This document shows, piece after piece, positions 8,242 to 57,308 of a stretch of DNA of 64,000 nt; the first letter of the stretch is position 1; each line of letters opens with the position of its first letter. This stretch comes from Humisphaera borealis (GTDB lineage Bacteria; Planctomycetota; Phycisphaerae; Tepidisphaerales; Tepidisphaeraceae). Both the position numbers and the translations under genes were made by a program. Below the pieces are notes generated by a model. That model searched no databases. It had not been told where the DNA came from and saw only the letters and a list, made by a program, of their open reading frames with translations. The stretch is from NCBI RefSeq assembly GCF_015169395.1, contig NZ_CP063458.1, forward strand, positions 2,976,001-3,040,000. Direction: 5' to 3'.

Positions 8242-8363
8242 GTAGGGTCCGCCTTGGCGGACGCGAGGCCCCGTCGGTAGGGTCCGCCTTGGCGGACGCG
8301 AAGCCTCGTTCGCCGAGCCCGTCGCGTCCGCCAAAGACACGCGTCCGCCAAGGCGGACCCTAC
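8242..8363. repeat. Palindromic repeat cluster, GGGTCCGCC family
   Basis: Two direct copies of GTAGGGTCCGCCTTGGCGG (8242-8264 and 8277-8300) face a degenerate copy (about 8321-8339) and a full inverted copy (8340-8363). Each unit is itself a small palindrome (GTCCGCC-TT-GGCGGAC). The stop codon of the adjoining phosphoesterase gene (8360-8362) lies inside the last copy. Other loci of the family are at 36818, 52481, 52678 and 57199. Confidence 0.92.
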
Positions 8364-10024
8364 GCGAGTACCTCTTCGGCGAGCAGGCGGATCTCCTGCG
8401 ACACCGCCGGCTCGAACTGGTCGAGGTTGGACGCAAGGAACTCCCGCAGGCCAACGCCCGCGGTCGTGCGGACGGATTGCAGCTTTTCCAGGTCGCGAAT
8501 GAAGAGCGACTGTCGCACTTCGACGGGCTCCGATTCGACGTCGGGATGGAATACCTCGTCGAACGGCAGGTGCGGCACGGTGACGCGTCGATACGCCAGG
8601 CCCTCGGTGGAGACATCCACCCGCAGAACGCCGGGCACATGCTCGCGGGATGCGTCCGACCGCGCGATCCGGCAAAGGCTGCCGGGGTTCATCCAGCGGG
8701 TTCGGCCAGTCGCGACATCGTGCAATTCGCGGTGGATGTGCCCGTTGACGATCAGGTCCACCCCTTTGACCTCGCGGCAATCCATCCGGCCGGCCTCTTC
8801 GAATCCGGGGAAGCGCAAGTCGTGGTGCGTCGCCCAGAGAACGTACGACGGCTCGCCGGAACGTGCGGCGGTGGCGACGGCTTCGCGGTCGAACGTCCAG
8901 GGGATCTTTTGCCCCCAGCAGGTTCCGCCGATGAAAACGCGGCACCCGTTCATGACGCCGGTCCAGGGGTGTTCGGCCGACAGCAGCCGAAGCAGACCGG
9001 ACGCGACCAGGATCGAGACGGTGTCGTGCTCGCCGGGCGTGTTCTCCTTGCAGTCGTGGTTGCCGTAGATCGCCGGCGTTTGCGGGTCCAGAAGGTGGTG
9101 AAGTTCGACGAGCAGCCAGTTGGCGTTGTCGCGCGGGAAGTCGAACAGGTCGCCGAGCAGGACCGGGAGCAGGCGTTCGGCCTTGGCGTACTCGATCGCC
9201 CAGCGGAGCTTTTGCAGGATTGCCCGGGGGTAGTCATCCCGGCGGAAGCCGGGCACGCGGTGGGCGAGGTGAAGGTCACCGATGAAGAGCACGCCGGCCC
9301 AGGCGGAGACAGGGGCGCTCTGCGTAGGAGAGCCGGGAGCACGGGCGGGCACGTCTGCTAGTTGTGGTTCGGGTTCGATGAGTATTTCCGGCTCCGCCGC
9401 ACTGGCGGGCGAGGACACCGGCGCTGCCGACTGCGGTGGTGCAAACTCTGGCACATCGACTGCCGGGAGTTCCGCGAGCCGCACATCATCAATACTCGGA
9501 TCGCGCATCCGAACGCCGGCGTCTGAGGTACTCCGAAGACCCGGATTCTCGTGCTGCGATGTCGAAGCATCCGGGTCTTCGCGGGTACGCTCAGACAACG
9601 GCGTGGGCGTTTCGACGACCGTGGGTGCTGGTGGCGCGGGCGGAGCATCGATCGCGGGTGCCACTTCCCGTAGCGCGGGGGGCGTCAGCAGGTCTTCCAT
9701 CGACGGCAGTTGCAGTTCGGGCGGGAACTCGAAGTCGTCGAGCGGGTCTGGAAGGTCGATTGGGGCGCGTGAGCGCGGGTCGCCCCATGTGGTGTCGGAG
9801 GTCGGAGCGACAGCGGGTCGGGGTCGCCCGCCGTGGTTACGAGGAGGGATGTCCGCCAAATCGAGATCGTCGTTCTTGTGAGCGTGCCCGGCGTCGATTG
9901 ATCCGGGCACACTGCCGTGTGCGACTACGGGAGACTCGTCACGATCGTTTGCTTCGCGTGGCGCGAAAAGTTCTTCCGTGGGTTGTGATACCTGCGTCGA
10001 CTTCGAAACCTTACGTTTCGCCAT
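8360..10024 (-). CDS. Metallophosphoesterase, SbcD/Mre11-like, with long disordered N-terminus
   Basis: 554 residues. The last 310 form a calcineurin-like phosphoesterase with all metal motifs: FIGDLHLAH (DxH), LLGDLFDFP (GD), AIYGNHDCKE (GNHD), WATHHDLRFPG and LIVNGHIHREL (GHxH). Mre11/SbcD enzymes are Mn-dependent nucleases that act with Rad50/SbcC at DNA ends. The first 240 residues are low-complexity Pro/Ala/Asp-rich sequence with no fold, and contain a palindromic repeat insertion (9512-9603) encoding NPGLRSTSDAGV. The gene starts 14 bp before the stop of the upstream Rad50-like gene, so translation is probably coupled. No capping domain of SbcD is evident. The stop codon lies in a dispersed repeat. 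Confidence 0.85.
   Translation of the reverse strand: MAKRKVSKSTQVSQPTEELFAPREANDRDESPVVAHGSVPGSIDAGHAHKNDDLDLADIPPRNHGGRPRPAVAPTSDTTWGDPRSRAPIDLPDPLDDFEFPPELQLPSMEDLLTPPALREVAPAIDAPPAPPAPTVVETPTPLSERTREDPDASTSQHENPGLRSTSDAGVRMRDPSIDDVRLAELPAVDVPEFAPPQSAAPVSSPASAAEPEILIEPEPQLADVPARAPGSPTQSAPVSAWAGVLFIGDLHLAHRVPGFRRDDYPRAILQKLRWAIEYAKAERLLPVLLGDLFDFPRDNANWLLVELHHLLDPQTPAIYGNHDCKENTPGEHDTVSILVASGLLRLLSAEHPWTGVMNGCRVFIGGTCWGQKIPWTFDREAVATAARSGEPSYVLWATHHDLRFPGFEEAGRMDCREVKGVDLIVNGHIHRELHDVATGRTRWMNPGSLCRIARSDASREHVPGVLRVDVSTEGLAYRRVTVPHLPFDEVFHPDVESEPVEVRQSLFIRDLEKLQSVRTTAGVGLREFLASNLDQFEPAVSQEIRLLAEEVLA
9512..9603. repeat. Imperfect inverted repeat inside the phosphoesterase coding region
   Basis: The left arm 9512-9545 matches the 5440 element (GTCTGAGGTACTCCGAAGAC). 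The right arm 9568-9603 pairs with it but carries small insertions and changes. The reading frame stays open, adding about 30 residues to the disordered N-terminal region of the protein. Confidence 0.9.
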
Positions 10025-11345
10025 GGTCCAAGCCTCCGTGCATCACATGGCTGGCCGTCAATGGCCCGCCGCATGTCGGACACAGCGGGTGCTGCGTCAC
10101 GAACCGAACGATCTCCGCCTCGACCCCGGCCACGGCGTTCTCGGCCGCGACGAGGTCGGCTTCCGCGGCGTGCAACTGTGCCGCGGTCTTCCCCAAGTGT
10201 AGCAGCGTTGTCTCCAAAGGCGTCAAATCGGCAACGCTCGGAACATCCGCCAGCGGCTCGAGAACCGCAGCAATGTTCTGCGCAGCGGCCAGGCGGGTCT
10301 GTGCCTCCCGGATCGACCTGCCGAGCGATTCCAGCGGTTGAAGGTCCGCCAGCGCGGGGACCTCCGAAAGCCCCTCGAGTGCGCTCGCGGATGCCGACCA
10401 GCGCCGGACCTCGTCGCTCGAACGACCTATCGCCGCGACGACCGCTGCCAGAGGGGCGGGGTCCTGCTCTGCCGGCGGCGATTGCAGCGTTGCCAGCGCC
10501 TCGTGCTCCGCCTGCCGCAAAGAAAGGTCGTGCCGCCAGCGATCCATGTCGGCGATCGTCGCCGCCAGCGGCGCCGGGTCGGCTAGCGTCGGCGGCGGCT
10601 GAAGTTCGTTCGTCGCGGCCAGCTCGGCCGAGAGGCGTTGTGCCTGCCGCGAGAGCCGGTCGAGGCGGTCGATCCGGTCCTTCAGAATCTTGAATGCGCG
10701 ATCGGCCTCCAGGAGCGCCCGGTGATCGGCCTCGGCCTTCTGCACGCCGGGCGTGAGGTCTTCGAGCTTTTCCAGCGAGGCCAGTTTTCCGCCCAACCGG
10801 GCCAGGTCGGCCTCGATGGCCCGCTGCTCTGCCCGGCGACTGGTGACCTTCGACTTGTGCCGCCGCTGCATTTCCATCAGCCGTTCCGACTCGGCCGAAC
10901 TGGAAAAGAATGCCGCCAGGTCCGAATCGCTGTCGAGCAGGAAGATCGGCTCTTTCTGGGAGCCGAAGTGGACCTGAAACTTGCGTCCGCTCGGGGATTC
11001 GATCAGCGGCATCCGCAGCAGGGTGTGCAGGTCGTCCGGCAGTCCGTTACGGCCCCGGCCGACGCGGTGGATGTCGGTGCCGTCGATGGTGTAGCTGGTC
11101 GATCCCCCCTTGCGCTGCCAGACGATGGTGTGGCCGTCGTCGGTTTCGATGGTGACGCGGGCGGTTTTCTCGCCATGGCGGACCATGTAGTCGCTGGAGG
11201 TTTCGCCGCAGACGGACTGGATCGCCGAGAGGACCGCCGACTTGCCGCAGTTGTTGGGCCCGACCAATACCGTGAGCCCGGCCGCCGGCTCGATGACGGT
11301 GTGGGCGTGCGACATGTAGTTTTCGAGCGTGATTCGGCGGATCAT
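10011..11345 (-). CDS. SbcC/Rad50-like ATPase, N-terminal half only, ending just after a CxxC hook-like motif
   Basis: 444 residues from ATG 11345 (MIRRITLENYMSHAHTVI, a typical SMC/Rad50 start). It has Walker A GPNNCGKS (29-36), a Q-loop region (FQVHFGSQKEPIFLLD), then about 260 residues of coiled coil. The coil carries four spaced repeats of the form P-x-LAD-x-x-PL (for example VPALADLQPLESL and VPSVADLTPLETTL). It ends with HPLCPTCGGPLTASHVMHGG: CxxC at 422-425 and HxxH at 433-436, like a Rad50 zinc hook or a small zinc finger. In Rad50/SbcC the chain then returns through a second coil to the Walker B/signature lobe. Here it simply stops, and no such lobe is encoded nearby. It overlaps the phosphoesterase gene by 14 bp. 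Function at DNA ends is inferred. Confidence 0.85.
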   Translation of the reverse strand: MIRRITLENYMSHAHTVIEPAAGLTVLVGPNNCGKSAVLSAIQSVCGETSSDYMVRHGEKTARVTIETDDGHTIVWQRKGGSTSYTIDGTDIHRVGRGRNGLPDDLHTLLRMPLIESPSGRKFQVHFGSQKEPIFLLDSDSDLAAFFSSSAESERLMEMQRRHKSKVTSRRAEQRAIEADLARLGGKLASLEKLEDLTPGVQKAEADHRALLEADRAFKILKDRIDRLDRLSRQAQRLSAELAATNELQPPPTLADPAPLAATIADMDRWRHDLSLRQAEHEALATLQSPPAEQDPAPLAAVVAAIGRSSDEVRRWSASASALEGLSEVPALADLQPLESLGRSIREAQTRLAAAQNIAAVLEPLADVPSVADLTPLETTLLHLGKTAAQLHAAEADLVAAENAVAGVEAEIVRFVTQHPLCPTCGGPLTASHVMHGGLDHGET

Positions 11346-36818: not shown

Positions 36819-36906
36819 TAGGGTCCGCCTTGGCGGACGCTCGGACTACCCTCGATCTTCCATCCTCGATTCCCTCGGCTTCCGCGTCCGCCAAGGCGGA
36901 CCTTAC
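36818..36906. repeat. Palindromic repeat, GGGTCCGCC family
   Basis: Left arm from 36818 (GTAGGGTCCGCCTTGGCGGA) and right arm 36883-36906 (its complement, one base different), separated by about 40 bases. It originally lay directly behind the slyD stop codon; the IS5 element now separates them. It ends seven bases before the stop of the convergent lipoprotein gene. Confidence 0.92.
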
Positions 36907-52480: not shown

Positions 52481-52563
52481 GTAGGGTCCGCCTTGGCGGA
52501 CGCGGTTCGGCGGTTCACGCAGTGCGGCGGTGACGTCCACGCGTCCGCCAAGGCGGACCCTAC
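52481..52563. repeat. Palindromic repeat, GGGTCCGCC family
   Basis: Arms 52481-52504 and 52540-52563 (GTAGGGTCCGCCTTGGCGGA and complement) with a 35-base loop, six bases after the kinase stop. First of three palindromes in 295 bases. Confidence 0.93.
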
Positions 52564-52577
52564 GACAAACAGAAGCG

Positions 52578-52657
52578 TTGAACGCCAATACGCCGAGCGG
52601 CCAAGGACGTAAGCCAAAGAAAGGCAACTCTTGGCGTCTCGGCGTCTTGGCGTTCAA
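52578..52657. repeat. Inverted repeat, TTGAACGCCAA type
   Basis: TTGAACGCCAATACGCCGAG (from 52578) pairs with CTCGGCGTCTTGGCGTTCAA (to 52657). Unrelated in sequence to the palindromes on either side. Confidence 0.85.
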
Positions 52658-52677
52658 TCTTGGGCCCGCACAGACAT

Positions 52678-52775
52678 GTAGGGTCCGCCTTGGCGGACGC
52701 GGTGCGGCGGTGGCCCGGTGCGGCGGTGACGCGATTCGGCGGTGATGTCCACGCGTCCGCCAAGGCGGACCCTAC
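52678..52775. repeat. Palindromic repeat, GGGTCCGCC family
   Basis: Arms from 52678 and to 52775 as in the copy at 52481. The loop carries repeated GGTGCGGCGGTG units. The two loci share GGCGG-GTGATGTCCACGCG-like inner sequence, so one may be a duplicate of the other. Confidence 0.92.
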
Positions 52776-57198: not shown

Positions 57199-57308
57199 CG
57201 TACGGTCCGCCTCGGCGGACCCGCAGCTCAATCGCGTCGCCCGCGTTCGAACGGCATGCAAAACATCGCATCCGTTCGGAAGGCCTCGTCCGCCAAGGCG
57301 GACCCTAC
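57199..57308. repeat. Palindromic repeat inside the exb operon, GGGTCCGCC family
   Basis: Degenerate left arm 57199-57220 (GTACGGTCCGCCTCGGCGGA) and full right arm 57285-57308. It sits directly between the exbD1 stop (57197) and the AAGAAGG ribosome site of exbD2. The TAC end is followed by a run of A (57308-57315). Confidence 0.88.

Follow-up and report, generated by a model that had tools for sequence, protein, structure and literature searches.

We propose, with a probability of about 0.88, that the gene at positions 10011-11345 (minus strand) of the 64,000-nucleotide stretch of DNA analysed here (hereafter the window) encodes the N-terminal half of a Rad50 that is naturally split in two, a component of an Mre11-Rad50 (SbcCD-type) complex. 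In the current view, a Rad50 or SMC protein is a single chain that doubles back on itself at a hook or hinge, and models for ATP signalling between hook and head rest on a continuous two-stranded arm. A widespread natural Rad50 whose return strand is cut would provide a direct test of this continuous-arm idea. It would also account for the 'half' SbcC proteins of phages, plasmids and planctomycetes, whose database labels (hypothetical protein, exonuclease or ATPase) suggest no relationship. A further implication is that genomes recorded as SbcCD-free may hold the complex in pieces.

An N-terminal Rad50 half and its operon partners

The open reading frame extends from an ATG to a stop codon, and Pfam, alignment and structure prediction all identify its 444-amino acid product as the N-terminal half of Rad50/SbcC (N-half). 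An ATPase N-lobe (residues 1-150) that matches Pfam AAA_23 over the cut-off (E 2.8e-13) is followed by a helical arm, a CPTC hook at residues 422-425, and then the stop. The hook codons occupy positions 10071-10082 (minus strand), 19 codons ahead of the stop, such that 19 residues remain past C425. The first-pass annotation, which described a half-Rad50 ending 19 residues after CPTC (C422, C425), is thereby borne out by the reading frame, the N-lobe assignment and the residue numbering. The curated SbcC model TIGR00618 has no match to the N-half.

About half the canonical SbcC/Rad50 length, the gene might be viewed as a degraded allele of full-length SbcC. However, 70 distinct homologues likewise end 10-46 residues past the last CxxC, and the closest ones, which had been named as possible full-length SbcC proteins, are half-length too. 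The catalytic residues are also invariant: in an alignment of 44 diverse homologues, G29, G34, K35 and S36 of Walker A do not vary, nor do the hook residues C422 and C425. We consider degradation to be virtually ruled out by these data. A frameshift that hides a C-terminal lobe in or near the gene was excluded as well, since none was found and the sole match to a C-lobe profile in the entire genome resides outside the window. Two N-half homologues lack the hook CxxC (L089:8001-10262 and L094:450-1886); these apparently hookless proteins have another C-terminal end, with the common sequence GYQxEVExALxKAAK.

The adjoining gene (8360-10024, minus strand) begins before the N-half gene has ended. 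Its product is an Mre11/SbcD-like phosphoesterase (MRE; PF00149) whose GDxH, GD, GNHD, HHD and GHxH motifs each line up with their counterparts in relatives, and thus the partner is intact, as the first-pass annotation had stated. The nuclease domain begins at about residue 240 and is preceded by a low-complexity extension that is absent from most relatives. The third conserved member of the operon (7936-8232, minus strand), which the first-pass annotation did not mention, encodes a coiled-coil protein (CC) of 98 amino acids that has the turn motif YGTDxLxEL. In relatives, CC is ~100 residues long and its gene is located directly before a gene for the C-terminal half.

The C-terminal half is a separate gene

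A stand-alone C-terminal Rad50 lobe (C-half) is encoded in the same genome at C1:3183940-3184647 (minus strand), 197 kb from the N-half and outside the window. The path to this gene began with a profile of C-lobes from megaplasmids, plasmids and phages, which led to a fourth gene in planctomycete operons; a new profile made from the latter was then applied to the window genome. This C-lobe profile yields a single match in the whole genome (C1:3183949-3184596; E 3.4e-84) and none within the 64,000 nucleotides of the window. A second C-lobe query finds the same gene (E 3.8e-64; 51% identity to a relative), for which Pfam offers no model over its cut-off. The observation that no second lobe is present up or down the operon is therefore correct, and of the two readings that accompanied it, the one that places the second lobe in a separate gene elsewhere has held up: one such gene is found 197 kb away, and relatives carry it as a fourth operon gene.

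The C-half retains GTGGSVANILSVGLRLFAL, RRFLVLDEQDCWL and VVMISHHS. Walker B, a D-loop and an H-loop are present, and residues D155, E156 and S188-H189-H190 are invariant among 35 C-halves. The signature is non-canonical: G124 and G125 are invariant, whereas LSGGE loses its serine and glutamate (consensus GQGGSVANILSVGLR), and the replacement of the LSGG serine gives the consensus GQGGS.

The C-half lies behind a sugar isomerase-like gene and is not co-transcribed with the N-half. In the window genome it has thus moved out of its operon, where two members of the same family still retain it. Its distance from the N-half and its sugar isomerase-like neighbour might instead mark it as an unrelated ABC lobe that stands alone and is no partner of the N-half. 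We regard this as very improbable, given that the gene is orthologous to the operonic C-halves, is the sole match to their profile, and has its nearest relatives largely in the same genomes as those of the N-half and MRE.

The two halves behave as one unit

The computations establish that Rad50 is split, what each half is, that the two co-occur and co-evolve, and that natural fusions join them in permuted order. First, the set of genomes with an N-half and the set with a C-half are identical, comprising 17 of the 392 genomes of the phylum. Seven further genomes have no C-half beside the N-half, and each of the seven carries exactly one C-half elsewhere; in one of them, it is the N-half that stands apart from a cluster of MRE, CC and C-half. 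The nearest relatives of such displaced C-halves derive largely from the same genomes as those of the corresponding N-half and MRE. Second, distance matrices for 63 genomes correlate at r = 0.885 for N-half versus C-half and at 0.895 for N-half versus MRE, and 0 of 2000 permutations reach the observed value.

Third, proteins from proteobacterial megaplasmids of Variovorax, Pseudomonas, Bosea and Alteromonas carry a C-lobe first and then an N-half ending in CxxC. The initial ~200 residues of these fusions include the GG signature region, Walker B (LDE) and the H-loop, and they are matched at E 1e-28 to 1e-36 by a C-lobe profile built solely from chromosomal planctomycete-type C-halves, with the fusions left out. 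From residue ~225 onward, the N-half profile matches at 1e-33 to 1e-55. This arrangement is a circular permutation, and it indicates that the two halves form one unit. Even the cyclic gene order is conserved, reading N-M-c-C in chromosomes and c-C-N-M in megaplasmids (N-half, MRE, CC and C-half, respectively, in the chromosomal order). The CC gene directly precedes the C-half in all planctomycete, megaplasmid and phage arrangements examined, including the phage order N, c, C, M.

The other reading offered by the first-pass annotation was that the N-half acts alone, as an end-binding clamp or an adaptor for the phosphoesterase. The position of the C-half outside the operon of the window genome would agree with this proposal. 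However, the halves co-occur exactly, co-evolve and fuse in permuted order, and the C-half is operonic in most relatives. Moreover, a Walker A half-site without the signature and Walker B cannot form a standard ABC ATPase site. For these reasons we consider action of the N-half alone to be quite improbable, and we favour a Rad50 made of both halves.

Distribution and gene order of the split system

The split recurs in dozens of bacteria, in one archaeal genome bin and in many phages. Within the 392 genomes of the phylum, N-half relatives are present in 16 other genomes and are likewise half-length; 15 of them share 33-46% identity with the N-half (E < 1e-57), and one matches at E 9e-17. A joint look at orthologues of the N-half and the phosphoesterase, as had been advised, reveals the order N-half, MRE, CC in all 15 planctomycete loci examined. 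In each of these 15 operons, the profile detects a fourth gene directly after CC that encodes a stand-alone C-lobe of ~225 residues. All four genes in the order N-half, MRE, CC, C-half are found at 46 loci from genome contigs, and the remaining loci from such contigs mostly reflect breaks at contig ends or halves that lie apart.

N-half relatives are known from many planctomycetes, from Desulfobacterota and Poribacteria, from a Verrucomicrobia genome, and from Sumerlaeia, Fimbriimonadaceae and archaeal Methanoregulaceae bins, although bins may carry contamination. On Bacilli plasmids and in phages, the C-lobe is a separate gene of ~205-215 residues. Phage and prophage contigs retrieved by a phage C-half carry all of N-half, CC, C-half and MRE (27 of 27), and N-half, MRE and C-half are present in five of six contigs retrieved by a large-phage N-half, the sixth contig being short. 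Scans of viral contigs with alignments of the planctomycete N-half, of the C-half and of the permuted fusions returned no relatives, whereas phage queries did detect them; a tblastn search of phages with the permuted Variovorax fusion likewise gave no match.

Two loci depart from the common layouts. In a Syntrophobacterales bin (L148, L180), the N-half is apart from an MRE-CC-C-half cluster, a break in the operon that differs from the one in the window genome. Bacillus phage vB_BboS-125 has an AP2-domain gene (L059:5410-5982) between the N-half and CC.

Predicted structures and a modular arm

Profile comparisons with the PDB assign each half to its expected part of Rad50. The best matches of the N-half profile are the Rad50 N-terminal chains 3qkr_A, 1ii8_A and 1f2t_A, and its positions 367-431 match the zinc-hook structures 6zff and 1l8d; those of the C-half profile are the Rad50 C-terminal chains 1us8_B, 1f2t_B and 1ii8_B. 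AlphaFold2 models give a mean pLDDT of 89.2 for the C-half of a relative (L092) and of 81.7 for the N-half, whose low pTM of 0.38 means that the model does not fix the path of the arm. In Foldseek searches, the N-half model resembles SMC and Rad50 N-terminal heads and the L092 C-half model resembles Rad50 C-lobe chains. Structure comparison of the N-half, which is informative up to residue ~190, gives a VIA Z of 11.1 to 9a9j_A (rmsd 5.1 over 169 residues) and of 10.9 to 1f2u_C (rmsd 3.1 over 126).

The modelled arm begins with a 94-residue helix (153-246), after which helices start at residues 258, 297, 336 and 375, each 39 residues from the last. The long helix is followed by three ~39-residue helix modules (starting at 258, 297 and 336) and a helix at 375-418, and PP is frequent in the turns that link the arm helices. 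Homologues differ in how far CxxC lies from Walker A, with distances that group at about 305-311, 342-352, 381-394, 422-435, 461-474 and 501. The vector strength at a period of 40 is 0.85, compared to a maximum of 0.39 among 1000 jittered controls, in a calculation that ignores sequence kinship. From this clustering, the arm seems to lengthen and shorten in units of complete ~40-residue modules. The C-half has one helix of ~73 residues before its lobe in the L092 model, which is too short for pairing with the whole arm. Speculatively, CC may supply more of the arm's return strand.

A proposed split complex and its role

In the assembly that we envision, the N-half would contribute Walker A, the Q-loop region, one arm strand and the CxxC hook, and the separately translated C-half would add a short coil, the signature region, Walker B, the D-loop and the H-loop. 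The two would fold in trans into one ABC head. Two such heads are predicted to sandwich two ATPs and to hold the Mre11-like nuclease, and at the arm tips a pair of N-half hooks could share one zinc ion. CC probably either supplies more of the return strand or gives the arm some other form of bracing. From sequence and its comparison with known proteins we infer that the parts assemble physically, that they have ATPase and nuclease activities and bind zinc, and that the complex functions at DNA ends as an ATP-gated nuclease.

Curated SbcC (TIGR00618) and SbcD (TIGR00619) models have no match in the window genome, in tests where 12 of 14 and 13 of 14 controls, respectively, were matched. Accordingly, the split complex is probably the only Mre11-Rad50 of this genome, although TIGR00618 may miss a Rad50 of the archaeal type. 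The SbcC model matches in only one of 38 planctomycetes tested. A 1348-amino acid AAA_23 protein was considered as a full-length SbcC and rejected, as it is an SMC; four shorter AAA_23 matches are also present. A bolder reading, which we hold tentatively and at somewhat less than even odds, is that Rad50 here is built from three proteins (the N-half with its hook, CC as the return segment, and the C-lobe), that no continuous coil is needed between hook and head, that ~40-residue modules set the length of the arm, and that the trans-assembled complex is the host's sole Mre11-Rad50.

The split complex could be real and yet serve mainly as a mobile-element nuclease, or as a defence or counter-defence nuclease adopted by some chromosomes, rather than in general DNA-end repair. 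Its presence on megaplasmids and phages fits this idea, as does the weak similarity that PADLOC reports between the N-lobe and LmuB and other ATPases. However, the split complex is chromosomal and broadly kept in one planctomycete family (f32; 14 genomes), and the partner is an Mre11-type nuclease without a PADLOC match. Furthermore, a genome without SbcC and SbcD model matches makes a housekeeping replacement plausible. We therefore judge a mainly mobile or defensive role unlikely, though far from negligible. Assignment of the operon to a defence system was also tried and rejected, the PADLOC evidence being weak P-loop similarity only.

Relationship to known systems

The split system shares with Mre11-Rad50/SbcCD a Walker A N-lobe, a Walker B/H-loop C-lobe, a helical arm with a CxxC zinc hook, and a phosphoesterase with Mre11 motifs. 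In contrast to that complex, in which Rad50 is one chain with an antiparallel coil, the split Rad50 comes as two chains accompanied by a small coiled-coil protein, lacks a continuous return strand from hook to C-lobe, varies its arm in ~40-residue steps, and has an altered signature motif. A closer parallel is the Pyrococcus furiosus Rad50 head (1F2T/1F2U), which likewise consists of two separate chains, with the N-half resembling chain A and the C-half chain B. That head is an engineered construct without the long arm or hook, whose N and C parts were reportedly co-expressed, whereas the split described here is natural. Because the head was solved as separate N and C chains, a two-chain head is physically possible.

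The ATPases of Lamassu (LmuB), archaeal ASRP and retron PtuA resemble the N-half in the N-lobe. Unlike these systems, the N-half is partnered by an Mre11-type nuclease; neither operon partner matches LmuA at E <= 0.01, and the N-half scores far below the ASRP family cut-off.

A literature search of incomplete coverage returned no description of a split, half or permuted Rad50. In the parts of their article that concern Bacillus phage 0305phi8-36 and Anaerostipes fusions, Yoshida et al. (2011; PMC3175470) reported that one SbcC P-loop NTPase segment 'was not observed', and the missing segment is not identified in those parts as a separate gene. Fusions of MRE and N-half on Bacilli plasmids (L057, L058) resemble the Mre11/Rad50 fusions described there. 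In PHROGs, the phage N-half (phrog_16465, 'exonuclease') and the phage C-half (phrog_15167, 'ATPase') are listed as two unlinked families, and both occur together in 27 of 27 phage loci.

Surroundings of the operon

Just past the CC gene, a tilS-like frame (6930-7883) is convergent with it. The gap between the MRE and CC genes holds three copies of the 16-bp palindrome GTCCGCCNNGGCGGAC (8247-8358), which are probably a repeat element and not part of the function of the complex. This REP-like palindrome, GTCCGCC(TT/AA/TC)GGCGGAC, occurs 11 times in the window, where none would be expected by chance, and its sites are at 8247-8358, 36823-36901, 52486-52770 and 57205-57303. A second dispersed palindromic repeat, TGAGGTACTCCGAAGACCCGGAT, has 11 exact copies in the genome and is found in the window at 5450-5517 and 9524-9546. 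One copy falls within the part of the Mre11-like gene that encodes the low-complexity N-terminal extension, and another inverted pair lies within the open reading frame at 5395-6849.
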